A stretch of DNA of 64,000 bases from Citrobacter enshiensis (GTDB lineage: Bacteria > Pseudomonadota > Gammaproteobacteria > Enterobacterales > Enterobacteriaceae), in NCBI RefSeq assembly GCF_029338175.1, contig NZ_CP119862.1, positions 3,224,001 to 3,288,000 on the forward strand. The letters are read 5' to 3'. The notes below the pieces were generated by a model that saw only the letters and a program-made list of their open reading frames with translations, did not search any database and had not been told where the DNA came from. Shown here in pieces: positions 4,159 through 63,919 of this stretch. Each line of letters opens with the position of its first letter. Positions within the stretch are counted from its first letter, which is position 1. The translations under genes were made by a program, and so were the position numbers.

Positions 4159-4877
4159 TTGAATTTAAAAACGTCTCTAAGCATTTTGGTCCAACCCAGG
4201 TGCTGCATAACATCGATCTGAACATCCGTCAGGGCGAAGTGGTCGTCATTATCGGGCCTTCCGGCTCCGGTAAATCCACCCTGCTGCGCTGCATCAACAA
4301 GCTGGAAGAAATCACCTCCGGCGATCTGATCGTCGATGGCCTGAAAGTCAACGATCCGAAGGTGGACGAGCGCTTAATCCGCCAGGAAGCCGGGATGGTG
4401 TTTCAGCAGTTCTACCTCTTCCCGCATCTGACGGCGCTGGAAAACGTCATGTTCGGTCCACAGCGCGTGCGCGGTGCGAAAAAAGAGGACGCGGAGAAAC
4501 AGGCCAAAGAGCTACTGGCGAAAGTCGGGCTGGCGGAACGCGCTCATCACTACCCTTCAGAGCTTTCCGGCGGTCAGCAACAGCGCGTGGCGATTGCCCG
4601 TGCGCTGGCGGTGAAACCGAAGATGATGCTGTTTGATGAACCAACCTCTGCGCTCGACCCGGAACTGCGTCACGAAGTGCTGAAAGTGATGCAGGATCTG
4701 GCGGAAGAAGGCATGACGATGGTGATCGTGACGCACGAGATCGGCTTCGCCGAGAAAGTGGCCTCACGTCTGATCTTTATCGACAAAGGCCGCATTGCGG
4801 AAGACGGCAACCCACAAACCCTGATTGAAAATCCACCCAGTCAGCGTTTACAGGAATTTTTACAGCACGTCTCCTGA
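4155..4877 (+). CDS. glnQ: Glutamine ABC transporter ATPase GlnQ
   Basis: Cytoplasmic ATPase that powers glutamine import. Walker A is GPSGSGKST at residues 34-42, the signature LSGGQQQR lies near residue 136, and Walker B with its catalytic Glu is [12 protein letters not shown] shortly after. The switch histidine is in the VTHE motif. The 240 residues match the family. The start is GTG at 4155, overlapping the glnP stop. Last gene of glnHPQ, followed by a hairpin at 4889-4913. Confidence 0.97.
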
Positions 4878-8161: not shown

Positions 8162-8448
8162 GGCATTCTCCTTTTAACAGCGGCGTAAGATACCCGTATA
8201 ACGCAACGGGGTAAACATGCTTACACTGCGAAAACCTTTACTACTGCAGGCGGTTATCAACAAAACGCATAAATTTTACTGCCAGAGCTACCCAAATAAG
8301 AAATATTTATGTCCTTGATTTGTCAATATTCGTCAATATATATCGTTCAAAAAATAAGCAGATCTTCATCGATTTTTTGCGTTAATTGTCGTCCTCTGAC
8401 GTCCTAAACTTATCAGGCACTACCTGTTGTTTCTCAGAGGAAGTCATC

Positions 8449-30696: not shown

Positions 30697-30720
30697 CGCT
30701 GTATAATCATATATATAGCG
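30697..30720. promoter_or_regulatory. ModE operator upstream of moaA
   Basis: On the minus strand the 24-bp site reads CGCTATATA-N6-TATACAGCG, a near-perfect inverted repeat with TATA-centred half-sites and 6-bp spacing like the modA operator of this window. In E. coli, ModE-molybdate activates the moa operon from such a site. Confidence 0.82.
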
Positions 30721-52637: not shown

Positions 52638-52665
52638 ATCGTTATGTAGTCACAAATATAACGAT
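52638..52665. promoter_or_regulatory. ModE operator of modABC
   Basis: The 28-bp inverted repeat has arms ATCGTTATGTA and AATATAACGAT separated by GTCACA, which is the classical modA operator with one mismatch. It lies 19 bp upstream of the modA start. ModE-molybdate represses there in E. coli. Confidence 0.93.
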
Positions 52666-53063: not shown

Positions 53064-53852
53064 ATGCAAGCCGAAATCCTTCTCACCCTGAAACTTCAGC
53101 AAAAATTGTTTGCGGACCCACGACGCATTTCTCTGCTTAAGCACATTGCGCTTTCCGGCTCCATTAGTCAGGGAGCGAAAGATGCGGGCATCAGTTACAA
53201 AAGCGCCTGGGATGCAATTAACGAGATGAACCTACTCAGCGAGCAGACGCTCGTAGAGCGCGCAACGGGCGGGAAAGGCGGCGGTGGCGCGGTGTTGACG
53301 CGCTATGGTCAACGACTGATCCAGCTTTACGATTTGCTGGCGCAGATTCAGCAAAAAGCCTTCGATGTGCTGAGCGACGACGATGCTTTACCGCTCAATA
53401 GTCTGCTGGCGGCAATCTCCCGTTTTTCGCTGCAAACCAGCGCCCGCAACCAGTGGTTTGGCACGATCACCTCTCGCGATCACGATCAGGTACAGCAGCA
53501 CGTCGACGTCCTGTTAGCGGACGGCGAAACGCGACTGAAAGTGGCGATCACCGCGCAAAGCGGCGAACGTCTGGGCCTGAATGAAGGTAAAGAAGTGCTG
53601 ATCCTTCTGAAAGCCCCCTGGGTGGGTATTACCCAGGACGATGCCACCGCACAGGCAGCCGACAATCAGCTTCAGGGCACCATCAGCCATATCGAACGCG
53701 GCGTCGAACAGTGTGAAGTGCTGATGACGCTTCCGGATGGTCAGACTTTATGCGCGACACTGCCGATTGAAGAAGCGGCCAGACTGGAACAAGGCGCTAA
53801 CGTGACGGCCTGGTTTAACGCGGACAACGTGATTATCGCTACGTTGTGCTAA
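53064..53852 (+). CDS. modE: Molybdate-responsive regulator ModE
   Basis: Dual regulator, 262 residues: an N-terminal winged helix (SGSISQGAKDAGISYKSAWD, about 30-50), and two C-terminal MOP (molbindin) domains that bind molybdate or tungstate, recognisable as paired SARNQWFGTI and the later DNQLQGTIS segments. It represses modABC and activates moa in E. coli. ATG at 53064. modF follows after 67 bp. Confidence 0.97.
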   Translation: MQAEILLTLKLQQKLFADPRRISLLKHIALSGSISQGAKDAGISYKSAWDAINEMNLLSEQTLVERATGGKGGGGAVLTRYGQRLIQLYDLLAQIQQKAFDVLSDDDALPLNSLLAAISRFSLQTSARNQWFGTITSRDHDQVQQHVDVLLADGETRLKVAITAQSGERLGLNEGKEVLILLKAPWVGITQDDATAQAADNQLQGTISHIERGVEQCEVLMTLPDGQTLCATLPIEEAARLEQGANVTAWFNADNVIIATLC

Positions 53853-60037: not shown

Positions 60038-60061
60038 AAATGAAGATTGAGGAGTAAGCAT

Positions 60062-60814
60062 ATGGCTGTAACTAAGCTGGTTCTGGTACGTCATGGTGAA
60101 AGTCAGTGGAACAACGAAAACCGCTTCACCGGCTGGTACGATGTTGATCTGTCTGAGAAAGGCGTGGGCGAAGCAAAAGCAGCAGGTAAACTGCTGAAAG
60201 ATGAAGGCTATAGCTTTGATTTTGCTTATACCTCTGTGCTGAAACGTGCCATCCACACCCTGTGGAACGTACTCGACGAACTGGATCAGGCCTGGCTGCC
60301 GGTAGAGAAATCCTGGAAACTGAACGAGCGTCACTACGGTGCGCTGCAGGGTCTGAACAAAGCTGAAACCGCAGAGAAATACGGCGATGAGCAGGTGAAA
60401 CAGTGGCGTCGTGGCTTTGCGGTAACACCGCCAGAGCTGACCAAAGACGATGAACGCTTCCCGGGCCACGATCCGCGTTATGCCACATTGACCGACAAAG
60501 AGCTGCCGGTCACCGAAAGCCTGGCGCTGACCATTGATCGTGTCATCCCTTACTGGAACGAATCCATTCTGCCGCGCATCAAAAGCGGTGAGCGCGTCAT
60601 TATCGCCGCTCACGGTAACTCCCTGCGCGCGCTGGTGAAATACCTGGATAAGATGGGTGAAGATGAAATTCTTGAACTGAATATCCCGACCGGCGTACCG
60701 CTGGTGTATGAGTTCGACGAAAACTTCAAGCCAATCAAACGTTACTACCTGGGTAATGCTGACGAGATCGCAGCAAAAGCGGCGGCCGTTGCGAATCAGG
60801 GCAAAGCGAAGTAA
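60062..60814 (+). CDS. gpmA: 2,3-bisphosphoglycerate-dependent phosphoglycerate mutase GpmA
   Basis: Glycolytic and gluconeogenic enzyme interconverting 3- and 2-phosphoglycerate through a phosphohistidine. 250 residues. The catalytic motif [12 protein letters not shown] has the phosphorylated His at residue 11; the second His is in [13 protein letters not shown]. The ATG at 60062 follows GAGGAGTAAGCAT. A Fur box lies upstream, and a hairpin separates it from the convergent transporter genes. Confidence 0.98.
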
Positions 60815-60859: not shown

Positions 60860-61636
60860 TTATACCCCGATAACCCCATCCAGTATCACCTGCGCCCTCC
60901 CCTGCGAGCACCGTTCCACGCGACCACGCACGTTGTACACCTGCGCCAGACGTTCTGCGGTAATCACCGCTTGCGGCGCGCCGCTCGCCACCAGCTTACC
61001 GTCTTTGAGCATCACAATATGTTCGCCATAGCGTAATGCCATATTCATATCGTGCACCACCACCAGCGTCACCAGCTGACGCGATCGCGTCTCCTGAACA
61101 ATCCGTTCCATAACGTGCAACTGATAATTCAGATCCAGTGCGCTGAGTGGCTCATCCAGTAGCAGAAGCTCAGGACGGCGGATCAGTGACTGCGCCAGTC
61201 CGACCAATTGCCGCTGACCGCCGGAGAGCTGATCAAGATAATGCAGCGCGAGGTGCGAAATGCCCAAATGTTCAAGTAGTACCAGTACCTGCGACTGATC
61301 CTGCGAAGCGTCATTCCCGCCCGCTGCGCGTTGTGCGACCACCACAGACTCCAGCACCTGCAAATGCACGCCCTGCGGCAATGACTGAGGTAAAAACACC
61401 ACCTTCTTCGCGCGCTGGGCAAACGGCAGCGACATCAGATTTTCATCACCCAGAAGCACTTCCCCGCGGGCTTTCGTTAAGCCAGCCAGAGCGCGTAACA
61501 ATGTCGACTTTCCACAGCCGTTAGGCCCCAGTAGCACCGTAATTTTGCCGCGCGGCAGTTCAGGAATGCTCAGATCGCCAATCACGGGGCGCTTCGGATA
61601 ACCGGCATTCAGCCCCCGAAGCGTCAGCCCGTTCAT
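60860..61636 (-). CDS. FecE/BtuD-type ABC transporter ATPase
   Basis: ATPase of a type II (FecCD/BtuCD-like) importer, 258 residues. Walker A GPNGCGKST, Q-loop in FLPQSLPQG, signature LSGGQRQLVGLAQSL, Walker [17 protein letters not shown], and the switch His in VVHDMNMALRYG. It overlaps the permease gene by 4 bp (ATGA). No E. coli K-12 gene lies at this position. Automated annotation would call it an iron-siderophore transporter. The ModE-like operator upstream argues for an oxyanion such as molybdate or tungstate, as in H. influenzae MolBC; this is inference. No binding-protein gene is adjacent. Confidence 0.9.
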   Translation of the reverse strand: MNGLTLRGLNAGYPKRPVIGDLSIPELPRGKITVLLGPNGCGKSTLLRALAGLTKARGEVLLGDENLMSLPFAQRAKKVVFLPQSLPQGVHLQVLESVVVAQRAAGGNDASQDQSQVLVLLEHLGISHLALHYLDQLSGGQRQLVGLAQSLIRRPELLLLDEPLSALDLNYQLHVMERIVQETRSRQLVTLVVVHDMNMALRYGEHIVMLKDGKLVASGAPQAVITAERLAQVYNVRGRVERCSQGRAQVILDGVIGV

Positions 61637-62700
61637 AGCGCGCCTCCCCGGCGACGAAGAATGATGCTCAGAAAAAACGGTACGCCCACCAGCGAAGTCA
61701 CAATCCCCACCGGAATGATCACGCCAGGCACCATATTTTTGGAGGCGACCGACGCCAGAGAAAGCACAAGCCCTCCTGTCAGCACGCTGCCGGGCAGATA
61801 AAAACGGTGATCTTCCCCGAACAGCATTCGCGCAATATGCGGTGCCACCAGACCGATAAAACCAATCGGCCCAACAAACGCGACCGAAAGCGCGGAGAGC
61901 AGACTAATGCGCAATAACGCGGCCAGACGTAAACGCCGAACGTCAATTCCGAAGCTCATCGCCCTCTCTTCTCCCAGCCGCAATGCCGTCAGTTGCCAGG
62001 CACTGCGCATTGACCAGCACGAGACAACGACGAAAACCACCGCCAGCACGCCAAGCTTTTCCCATGAGGCGCGGGTCAGGCTGCCCATCGTCCAGAAGAC
62101 CAGTCCCTGCAACGTATCTTCATCCGCCACAAACTGCAGCATTGAAACCAGCGCATTGAAGGTAAACACCAGGGCAATACCGAACAGCACAACGCCCGAC
62201 GTCGCAACTCGCGTCCAGCGGGTGATGCCATCCAGTAACAGCGCGGAAAGCAAGGCAAACGCAAAGGCATTGGCGGGGATAAACCAGGCTGCGGGAATGC
62301 CCGGTATCCCGATGCCCAGCACAATCGCCAGCGCCGCGCCAAACGCTGCAGCAGACGAAACCCCGAGTGTAAAAGGGCTCGCCAGCGGGTTGTTCAAAAT
62401 GGTTTGCATTTCGGCACCCGCCAGCCCAAGCGCCATGCCGATCAGTAGCGCCATCAGCGCATACGGCAAGCGAATATCCCAGACAATCACGCGGGCCCCG
62501 GCATTCGCGCGGGCAGGATGCAGCAATGTTTCCCAGAGTTCACTGAGCGGTAAACCCGACGCGCCAAGGGTGGAATCGAGCACCAACGAAGCAAGGATCG
62601 TCAGAACAATCGCCAGCGCCAACAGTAAGCGTTGACGCACAACCTGTCGGTAGAGGCGCGTAATGGCGTTCGGGGAGGTCACATTAACGGAGAGCGACAT
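61633..62700 (-). CDS. FecCD-family ABC transporter permease
   Basis: Inner-membrane permease of the FecCD/BtuC family, 355 residues with about ten helices. Family landmarks are WDIRLPYALMALLIGMALGLAG, the NNPLASPFTLGVSSAAAFGA block (about 103-122), WTMGSLTRASW, and the cytoplasmic coupling region FVGPIGFIGLVAPHIARMLFG. The ATG at 62700 has no obvious ribosome site and is preceded by a 13-codon upstream ORF in another frame. Its promoter has TATAAT at 62765-62770 and a ModE-like operator over the -35 region. Specificity cannot be read from sequence alone. Confidence 0.9.
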   Translation of the reverse strand: MSLSVNVTSPNAITRLYRQVVRQRLLLALAIVLTILASLVLDSTLGASGLPLSELWETLLHPARANAGARVIVWDIRLPYALMALLIGMALGLAGAEMQTILNNPLASPFTLGVSSAAAFGAALAIVLGIGIPGIPAAWFIPANAFAFALLSALLLDGITRWTRVATSGVVLFGIALVFTFNALVSMLQFVADEDTLQGLVFWTMGSLTRASWEKLGVLAVVFVVVSCWSMRSAWQLTALRLGEERAMSFGIDVRRLRLAALLRISLLSALSVAFVGPIGFIGLVAPHIARMLFGEDHRFYLPGSVLTGGLVLSLASVASKNMVPGVIIPVGIVTSLVGVPFFLSIILRRRGGAL

Positions 62701-62764
62701 GGTACTTCATCACGATGCGTTTCATTCTGCGGGTAGATCTTTTTCTTACGGGGCCGGAAGCGTG

Positions 62765-62770
62765 ATTATA
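62765..62770 (-). promoter_or_regulatory. -10 element of the FecCD-type transporter
   Basis: On the minus strand, GGTATAATCACG contains a perfect TATAAT, putting the start near 62758 and leaving a leader of about 58 nt. The -35 position falls inside the ModE-like operator and is itself poor. Confidence 0.65.
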
Positions 62771-62782
62771 CCGTACTTACCT

Positions 62783-62810
62783 ATCGTTATATATTTTTTT
62801 ATATTCCGAA
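62783..62810. promoter_or_regulatory. ModE-like operator of the FecCD-type transporter
   Basis: ATCGTTATATA and TATATTCCGAA are separated by TTTTTT, the same 11-6-11 layout as the modA operator at 52638-52665. The left arm is a perfect ModE half-site and the right arm keeps TATAT and CGA. The centre is about 38 bp upstream of the predicted start, so binding would block RNA polymerase. Confidence 0.72.
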
Positions 62811-62820
62811 GCGGAGACAC

Positions 62821-62848
62821 AAAAAAAGCCGACTGTCAGAGTCGGCTT
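62821..62848 (-). terminator. Terminator of aroG
   Basis: The 9-bp stem AAGCCGACT/AGTCGGCTT with a 5-nt loop is followed on the minus strand by seven T residues, partly within the stem. It lies 18 bp after the aroG stop. Confidence 0.93.
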
Positions 62849-62866
62849 AGATGCAGATAAGCAGAA

Positions 62867-63919
62867 TTATCCGCGGCGCGCTTTCACCGCGTTCGACAAC
62901 TTACGCAGCAGCGAGTCGGTGTCTTCCCAACCAATGCAGGCATCGGTAATGCTTTTACCGTAAGTCAGCGGTTCACCGCCTTCCAGGTTTTGATTACCTT
63001 CAACCAGATGGCTCTCCACCATCACGCCAATGATCGCCTTTTCTCCGCCGGCAATTTGCTGGCAGACATCCGCGCAGACATCCATCTGCTTTTTGAACTG
63101 CTTGCTGGAATTGGCGTGGCTAAAATCAATCATCACCTGCGCAGCCAACCCTGCTTTCCCAAGTCCCTCTTTCACGGCTGCGACGTGATGCGCGCTGTAG
63201 TTCGGTTCTTTCCCGCCGCGCAGAATGATATGGCAGTCGCCATTTCCGCTGGTATTCACAATTGCGGAGTGACCCCATTTGGTGACGGAAAGGAAACAGT
63301 GCGGCGCCCCTGCGGCGTTGATAGCGTCAATGGCGACCTTGATCGTGCCATCGGTGCCATTTTTGAATCCTACCGGGCAGGAAAGTCCTGAAGCCAGCTC
63401 ACGGTGAACCTGAGATTCGGTAGTACGCGCCCCAATGGCGCCCCAGCTCATCAGGTCGGCAAGGTATTGTGGGGTGATCATGTCAAGGAACTCACCGGCA
63501 GCCGGTAAACCGCTATCATTGATATCCAGCAATAACTTACGGGCGATACGCAGACCATCGTTGATCTGGAAGCTGTTATCCATGTGCGGATCGTTGATCA
63601 GCCCCTTCCAGCCCACGGTGGTGCGCGGTTTTTCAAAATAGACGCGCATGACGATCTCAAGCTCGTCTTTTAATTCTTCACGCAGTGCCAGCAGGCGAGC
63701 CGCATACTCTTTGGCCGCCGCCGGATCATGAATTGAACACGGTCCAATCACGACCAGCAGACGATCGTCATTGCCTTTCAGAATTTTATGAATCGCTTTA
63801 CGGGCATGCGCTACCGTGTTGGCAGCGTTTTCAGTAGCGGGGAATTTTTCCAGGAGTGCGACCGGCGGTAATAACTCGTTGATCTCTTTAATGCGTAAAT
63901 CGTCGTTCTGATAATTCAT
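62867..63919 (-). CDS. aroG: Phe-sensitive DAHP synthase AroG
   Basis: First enzyme of aromatic amino-acid synthesis: condenses phosphoenolpyruvate with erythrose-4-phosphate; the AroG isozyme is inhibited by phenylalanine. The 350 residues match E. coli in length. Key segments are VVIGPCSIHDP with a metal-binding Cys, the YFEKPRTTVGWKG substrate loop, and DFSHANSSK with the metal-binding His region. The ATG at 63919 starts MNYQNDDLRIKEIN. A TyrR half-site lies at the window edge. Confidence 0.98.
   Translation of the reverse strand: MNYQNDDLRIKEINELLPPVALLEKFPATENAANTVAHARKAIHKILKGNDDRLLVVIGPCSIHDPAAAKEYAARLLALREELKDELEIVMRVYFEKPRTTVGWKGLINDPHMDNSFQINDGLRIARKLLLDINDSGLPAAGEFLDMITPQYLADLMSWGAIGARTTESQVHRELASGLSCPVGFKNGTDGTIKVAIDAINAAGAPHCFLSVTKWGHSAIVNTSGNGDCHIILRGGKEPNYSAHHVAAVKEGLGKAGLAAQVMIDFSHANSSKQFKKQMDVCADVCQQIAGGEKAIIGVMVESHLVEGNQNLEGGEPLTYGKSITDACIGWEDTDSLLRKLSNAVKARRG

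Follow-up and report, generated by a model that had tools for sequence, protein, structure and literature searches.

A ModE-type operator before a Yiu-like permease-ATPase pair in Citrobacter enshiensis suggests a molybdate or tungstate importer served by MolA

The MolABC system of Haemophilus influenzae (HI1470-1472) joins a type II permease of the FecCD fold to one ATPase and is present beside ModABC, according to PMC4031551, which also describes the regulation of MolBC-A transport as poorly understood. The DNA analysed here (the window, 64,000 nucleotides of Citrobacter enshiensis, positions 3,224,001 to 3,288,000 of contig NZ_CP119862.1) encodes a permease-ATPase pair of this general build, and its genome encodes a clear homologue of MolA. 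The window permease differs, however, in not being MolB, which forms a separate clade; molA and the pair stand at two unlinked loci, both with ModE-type boxes, rather than in one cluster of molA, permease and ATPase (in E. coli A36, molA is linked to a permease of this kind). The YiuABCR system of Yersinia pestis is similar in permease family and in operon logic (binding protein, permease, ATPase and outer-membrane receptor), and PMC5683015 and PMC2835676 describe it as regulated by Fur and serving iron. The window pair departs from it: its box is of the ModE type, a Fur-like site is lacking, and neither a receptor nor YiuA adjoins. ModABC is a different type of importer, with ModA as its binding protein; the ModABC-ModE system of enterobacteria has the same type of operator in the window and the same presumed signal, but lacks an outer-membrane receptor, unlike a fuller form of the pair's operon found in relatives. 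The receptor of that fuller operon resembles the TonB-dependent siderophore receptors of TIGR01783 (299 bits against a cut-off of 223.5), from which it is set apart by the ModE-type box that precedes it in all 14 genomes where it occurs.

We regard it as probable, reading from sequence, that the pair is a ModE-repressed importer of molybdate or tungstate (or of a complex of them), built from a siderophore transporter and using MolA as its receptor in this genome. The first-pass annotation, which had proposed a ModE-repressed oxyanion importer acting as a backup to ModABC, is partly supported.

The pair, its operator and other ModE-type boxes

The features on which the argument draws are these:

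61633-62700, minus strand: FecCD-type permease of a Yiu-like family, in the ModE-boxed clade (PF01032, E 4e-83; trees)
60860-61636, minus strand: ABC ATPase partner, overlapping the permease stop (PF00005, E 1e-28)
62867-63919, minus strand: aroG, the upstream neighbour, which marks the full-operon site in relatives
60047-60814, plus strand: gpmA, the downstream neighbour and other edge of the site
62785-62808, no strand: ModE-type operator, core CGTTATATATTTTTTTATATTCCG, scoring 27/28 to the consensus (full 11-6-11 element 62783-62810)
62765-62770, minus strand: -10 hexamer TATAAT of a predicted promoter, read in the sequence, with no consensus -35
62826-62848, minus strand: terminator-like hairpin, separating the pair from aroG
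53064-53852, plus strand: modE, the presumed regulator (NF007957, E 3e-150)
52640-52663, no strand: ModE-type operator of modA, a comparison site
30697-30720, no strand: ModE-type operator before moaA, a comparison site

The two transporter families are as the first-pass annotation had named them, and no binding-protein ORF adjoins the pair, its neighbours being gpmA and aroG only. An ATPase more than 55% identical adjoins the permease in all 30 of the permease loci L052-L081 (the window's own included). Against three relatives, dN/dS is 0.05-0.12 for the permease and 0.05-0.30 for permease and ATPase taken together, and in ten comparisons with relatives that cover permease, ATPase, MolA and the ModA-like protein encoded after it the range is again 0.05-0.30. 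By this measure the pair is under purifying selection and its function is still used.

The 11-6-11 element at 62783-62810 is present exactly as had been claimed, reading ATCGTTATATA-N6-TATATTCCGAA, and the modA and moaA boxes of the same window have the same layout. Boxes were scored by summing both strands against CGNTATATN7TATATNNCG, which we take to be the ModE consensus (maximum 28); the core at 62785-62808 has no mismatch on the plus strand and one on the minus strand. Across the 166 bp that separate aroG from the pair the best score is 27/28, a value reached by none of 2,000 dinucleotide shuffles (one reached 25), and the claim of a ModE-type operator in a repressor-like position stands. 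The accompanying promoter stands in part: the TATAAT is perfect and a spacer of 16-18 bp from it would place the -35 within the box, so that the box would cover the -35 region of the pair, but no good -35 is seen inside the box, and a promoter scan of 62600-62900 gave no promoter. Citrobacter sp. R56 and Salmonella enterica subsp. diarizonae have the box at the same place with a TATAAT at a like distance.

The presumed regulator is encoded in the same genome as the operator (ModE is found in 90 of the 149 family genomes). The ModE pattern is matched with no mismatch at three places in the whole genome; with up to two mismatches allowed there are 41 matches and 46 to the reversed pattern, and since the reversed pattern is equally frequent such loose matches are uninformative. 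Weight is placed only on boxes that are both high-scoring and well placed. Among the strong boxes in this genome are two before dmsA, one 263 bp before a torC homologue and one 346 bp before the gene for a ferredoxin-like protein. A one-mismatch site lies 164 bp upstream of lrhA (L017 2121-2144), two more one-mismatch matches fall within ORFs and look like chance, and a weaker match (22/28, window 8322-8345) separates divergent ORFs close to the start of the window.

A palindrome with no mismatch on either strand (L014 3421-3444; G000 C1:720420-720443), upstream of molA, precedes a 99-residue ORF; the small-subunit ORF of hydrogenase 2 (hyb operon) follows at 297 bp. It would be unexpected for hydrogenase 2 to be tied to molybdate status.

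MolA as the candidate receptor

The window's genome encodes five proteins of the Peripla_BP_2 family (PF01497). The best of these, P0005 (C1:727571-728620), lies 2.56 Mb from the window pair and matches H. influenzae MolA (HI_1472, structures 3psa and 3psh) with an E-value of 1e-131 over 324 residues. Its gene has a ModE-type box, CGCTGTATACTTAATTATACATCG (C1:727530-727553), ending 17 bp upstream of the start, and is followed by one for a 230-residue ModA-like protein (NCBIfam NF002915, E 5e-122) that starts at the mature end, with no signal peptide visible. The four other binding proteins have permeases of their own (FhuD-FhuB, FepB-FepDG, BtuF-BtuC, and L010 adjoining L261), so that among the clear members of the two families in this genome only the window permease and MolA remain without a partner, three FecCD matches of 30-40 bits being too weak to count as clear. 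By elimination the two would be partners, and the pair's receptor in this genome is probably MolA. The earlier description of the pair as an orphan with an unknown receptor no longer strictly holds: the genome search that accompanied it as a suggestion, for a MolA-like protein with a similar operator, found MolA behind such a box.

The two halves are joined in E. coli A36, where an ATPase-permease unit (64% and 73% identical to the window's) is divergent from molA and a ModA-like gene (80% and 63% identical to those of the window's genome) and a 28/28 box lies between the divergent units. A locus of this type occurs in 45 of 5,426 complete E. coli genomes.

MolA genes in the family fall into 19 with MolB and MolC next door and 18 without (G050 is undecided at a contig end, and G011 has a weak ATPase match nearby but no MolB). 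A permease of the window's type is present in 18 of 18 genomes whose MolA lacks MolBC, against 10 of 19 with MolBC (p 0.001). Restricted to the 90 genomes holding ModE, the figures are 17 of 17 and 42 of 73 (p 0.0004); for the genomes with the full-operon receptor they are 13 of 13 (p 0.003), and for receptors not adjoining the permease only 7 of 7 (p 0.09). These counts are not independent, because the two kinds of MolA nearly form two clades. In 15 of the 18 orphan-MolA genomes, moreover, the permease is not a member of the boxed clade, and 11 of the 15 have a Fur-like site; co-regulation therefore does not back the pairing there. With that proviso, MolA appears, from its distribution, to have changed its permease partner.

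Upstream regions of MolA score at least 23 in 34 of 38 cases, as do 10 of 3,800 shuffles. The reversed pattern is a weak control here because it shares the palindromic core (it reached 22 before molA in 20 of 37 cases), and shuffles and 768 ORF starts were used instead. Thirty-eight of those 768 starts, all in fetched neighbourhoods, score at least 23: 27 belong to molA, five to the full-operon receptor, four to genes divergent from molA, one to a Proteus permease and one to a ModA-like gene. In G042 molA is preceded by different sequence, and the only match, 22/28, stands farther upstream; in G014 (L165) half a box remains before molA while ModE is split into two ORFs (C1:1326340-1327193), as if operator and regulator had decayed together. 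G014 bears on whether ModE is the protein that binds, since it is one of only two genomes in 37 without the MolA box; the same box also stands before modA, moaA and dmsA in the window's genome. Both points speak against binding by some other regulator that shares the TATAT-N7-TATAT palindrome, a reading we hold to be very unlikely even though the reversed pattern is as frequent at two mismatches and genome G082 has boxes with no ModE domain found.

The permease family and its change of operator

By sequence, the best solved relatives of the window permease are hemin permeases, with MolB ranking after FhuB, a point that speaks against a molybdate importer. Permeases of its type occur in 61 of the 149 family genomes and MolA in 38 (own included in both), and it is 66-89% identical to the Yiu-type family permeases of the 60 other genomes. 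In trees MolB forms a separate clade (100/99 and 100/100) at 33-40% identity; the idea that the window permease is a MolB orthologue was rejected on these grounds, and the relation to MolBC claimed by the first-pass annotation survives as a link to MolABC through MolA. The Yiu-type assignment is drawn from the permease trees and identities and from locus L105, a Fur-type relative whose adjoining binding protein matches YiuA (6b2x, E 7e-187); permeases at the Yersinia loci L246, L249, L252 and L256 are 78-79% identical. The phylogeny proposed along with the original reading thus places the permease with siderophore transporters, contrary to what that reading expected, while the Fur-like site that would complete the objection is absent from the pair's promoter.

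Permeases with boxes of at least 25 form one clade (98/95, 12 rows) in a tree to which 34 further permeases and three weakly boxed ones were added from the 140 loci fetched. An earlier tree recovered the same clade (99/86, 11 rows) with its bootstrap not settled. The operators were compared upstream of the first gene of each operon, against the ModE pattern and against a 19-position sequence taken here as the Fur consensus. The ten ModE-type rows have ModE scores of 25-28 and Fur-like scores that 11-96 of 100 shuffles match, while among the 55 other rows, whose ModE scores are 15-22, there are 36 with a Fur-like site that no more than 3 of 100 mononucleotide shuffles equal. (There is no row for L114; the ORF start of L083 extends beyond the box, which makes its score wrong; and L129 misses its 23/28 box because it was scored before a small ORF.) The window promoter (L021) has no Fur-like site, its score of 11 of 19 being reached by 66 of 100 shuffles. 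On this comparison the boxed clade is one that has changed operators, with ModE-type in place of Fur-like.

Such an ancestry invites the reading that an iron-siderophore is still the pair's cargo, taken from a borrowed binding protein, and that ModE control only matches the supply of iron to what molybdoenzyme assembly requires. The high identity to Yiu-type permeases, the Fur-like sites in 36 of 55 such operons and the full-operon receptor, nearest to siderophore receptors (TIGR01783, FemA, BauA), all favour it. The window promoter, however, is without a Fur-like site, neither that receptor nor an orthologue of its operon's binding protein is found in this genome, each other PF01497 protein here has its own permease, and the partner gene at the box in E. 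coli A36 is molA; import of iron is in our judgement unlikely.

Weak boxes of 23/28 also precede the permease at the Proteus loci L129, L191 and L200 and in Pantoea sp. AS-PWVM4 (L205); L129, L200 and L205 fall outside the boxed clade, and their boxes are accordingly chance or separate gains. A ModE-type box of 22-26/28 is also seen between the end of the permease operon and a WtpA-like gene in Enterobacter soli, Leclercia and Enterobacter sp. BIGb0383 (L197 8081-9814, L198 7139-8872, L189 8064-9024), L197 encoding a WtpA-like and a ModB-like protein. These loci are another putative importer of molybdate or tungstate.

Fuller operons with a TonB-dependent receptor

The full form of the operon consists of a box, a TonB-dependent receptor, a binding protein (PBPy), the permease and the ATPase, and is found in G134 (permease 89% identical) and others. 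It occurs at L082, L083, L086, L088, L093 and L114 among 60 neighbourhoods and, among 80 named loci, in Citrobacter sp. MGH106 (L194) and Yokenella (L243), with a box of 25-27/28 beginning 23-30 bp before the aligned receptor start. Both aroG and gpmA flank it at L086, L114 and L194, one or both flanks lying outside the view elsewhere. The short form, box-permease-ATPase, is seen in the window, in Citrobacter sp. R56 (L180) and in S. diarizonae (L206); aroG is the neighbour at all three of L086, L114 and L194 and also at L180 and L206, and gpmA at L082, L086, L114, L194 and L206. R56 and S. diarizonae have MolA without adjacent MolBC (95% and 86%, boxes 24 and 26), and MGH106 and Yokenella, the named genomes with the full operon, have MolA with MolBC. 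A box directly before the permease in all orthologues was considered and rejected, 2 of 60 scoring at least 22 within 300 bp. Conservation of the operator, which the first-pass annotation had offered as a check, is therefore mixed: the box is kept before the permease in R56 and S. diarizonae and absent there at most of the other loci examined, and in the fuller operons it stands before the receptor gene instead.

The receptor is present in 14 of the 149 family genomes (E 1e-150 or better, 40-100% identity), and a box scoring at least 23 begins 23-124 bp upstream in every one, against 5 of 1,400 shuffled receptor upstream regions; Fur-like scores at these boxes are only 10-13 of 19. Receptor and PBPy also occur together on plasmids: among the 6 plasmid records examined (of 16), copies in Cronobacter condimenti, Pantoea sp. 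At-9b and Chimaeribacter have boxes of 26-27. The full operon (at least 80% in one place) is present in 897 of 5,426 complete E. coli genomes, with a box of 25/28 in each of the four examined (SE15, an ST131 strain, W224N and ChlosBP-23-1), whose records annotate the genes as a TonB-dependent receptor and generic ABC parts only.

The copy of the full operon in E. coli SE15 is seen at L300 4827-9868, its receptor box at 4827-4850, and an E. coli plasmid copy at L272 6900-11920 has a 25/28 box and genes that match only in pieces. Receptor relatives in Paracoccus and Methylocystis have no ModE-type box (scores 20 and 17). On a Paracoccus denitrificans plasmid (L273 6844-12754) a receptor (46%), a permease-like protein (36%) and PBPy (52%) are encoded together, without an enteric-type ModE box and with a CGATATG-N10-CATATCG palindrome before the receptor.

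The window's genome lacks the outer parts of this system: a search for the receptor returned at best partial matches of 25-28%, and a search for PBPy returned only MolA and BtuF. Their absence from site and genome would fit a functionless relic left after receptor and binding protein were lost, as would G094, of the same genus, in which neither MolA nor the permease was found. The low dN/dS of permease and ATPase against three relatives and the retention of box and TATAAT in R56 and S. diarizonae count against decay, which we consider highly improbable. A more serious alternative is that the substrate is molybdate or tungstate bound to a siderophore (a catecholate) and not the free oxyanion, the window genome keeping the inner-membrane half only. 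The box before the siderophore-type TonB receptor of the full operon, in all 14 family genomes that have this receptor, suggests this, as does the divergence of PBPy from MolA (32% identity over 252 columns); but this genome has neither receptor nor PBPy, and the data point to no known chelate, so that for the window pair we entertain the possibility only tentatively.

Under the preferred reading, the pair would form the inner-membrane part of a type II ABC importer that takes up molybdate, tungstate or a complex of them; ModE would repress it while molybdate is abundant, and MolA (C1:727571, behind its own ModE-type box) would be its receptor. Permease and ATPase would descend from a Fur-controlled Yiu-type siderophore importer, of which one lineage gained ModE-type in place of Fur-like control; a Citrobacter-like lineage would then have lost the TonB receptor and binding protein, leaving box, permease and ATPase to serve MolA. 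The box, the homologies, the clade, the synteny, the absence of receptor and PBPy, the co-occurrence and the purifying selection are read from sequence; ModE binding and repression, the substrate, the partnership with MolA and this order of events are inferred. A role as backup to ModABC becomes only one option, given that the full versions carry a TonB-dependent receptor.

A wider proposal, on which we are evenly divided, is that a TonB-dependent system under ModE control carries molybdenum or tungsten, probably chelated, through the outer membrane of enterobacteria, about one in six of the complete E. coli genomes among them; that it arose by ModE capture of a Fur-controlled siderophore importer; that its permease serves two binding proteins under molybdenum regulation, PBPy and MolA; and that the window represents a reduced, MolA-only end state. 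The literature searched gave no report of a ModE-controlled TonB receptor or of ModE control of MolA; as subscription papers (mostly) and regulon databases fell outside its scope, an earlier prediction is possible.

Molybdate is thought to cross the outer membrane through pores, by drift. The box before a TonB receptor, found from receptors 40% identical in other genera to an operon present in 897 of 5,426 E. coli genomes (box examined in four), is an argument for energy-consuming import of molybdenum or tungsten by some enterobacteria, and the generic annotation in the four E. coli records means that the purpose of the system may have been missed. The family would offer a clear case of a regulatory switch from Fur to ModE inside one transporter family, and also of a binding protein, MolA, apparently switching its permease.
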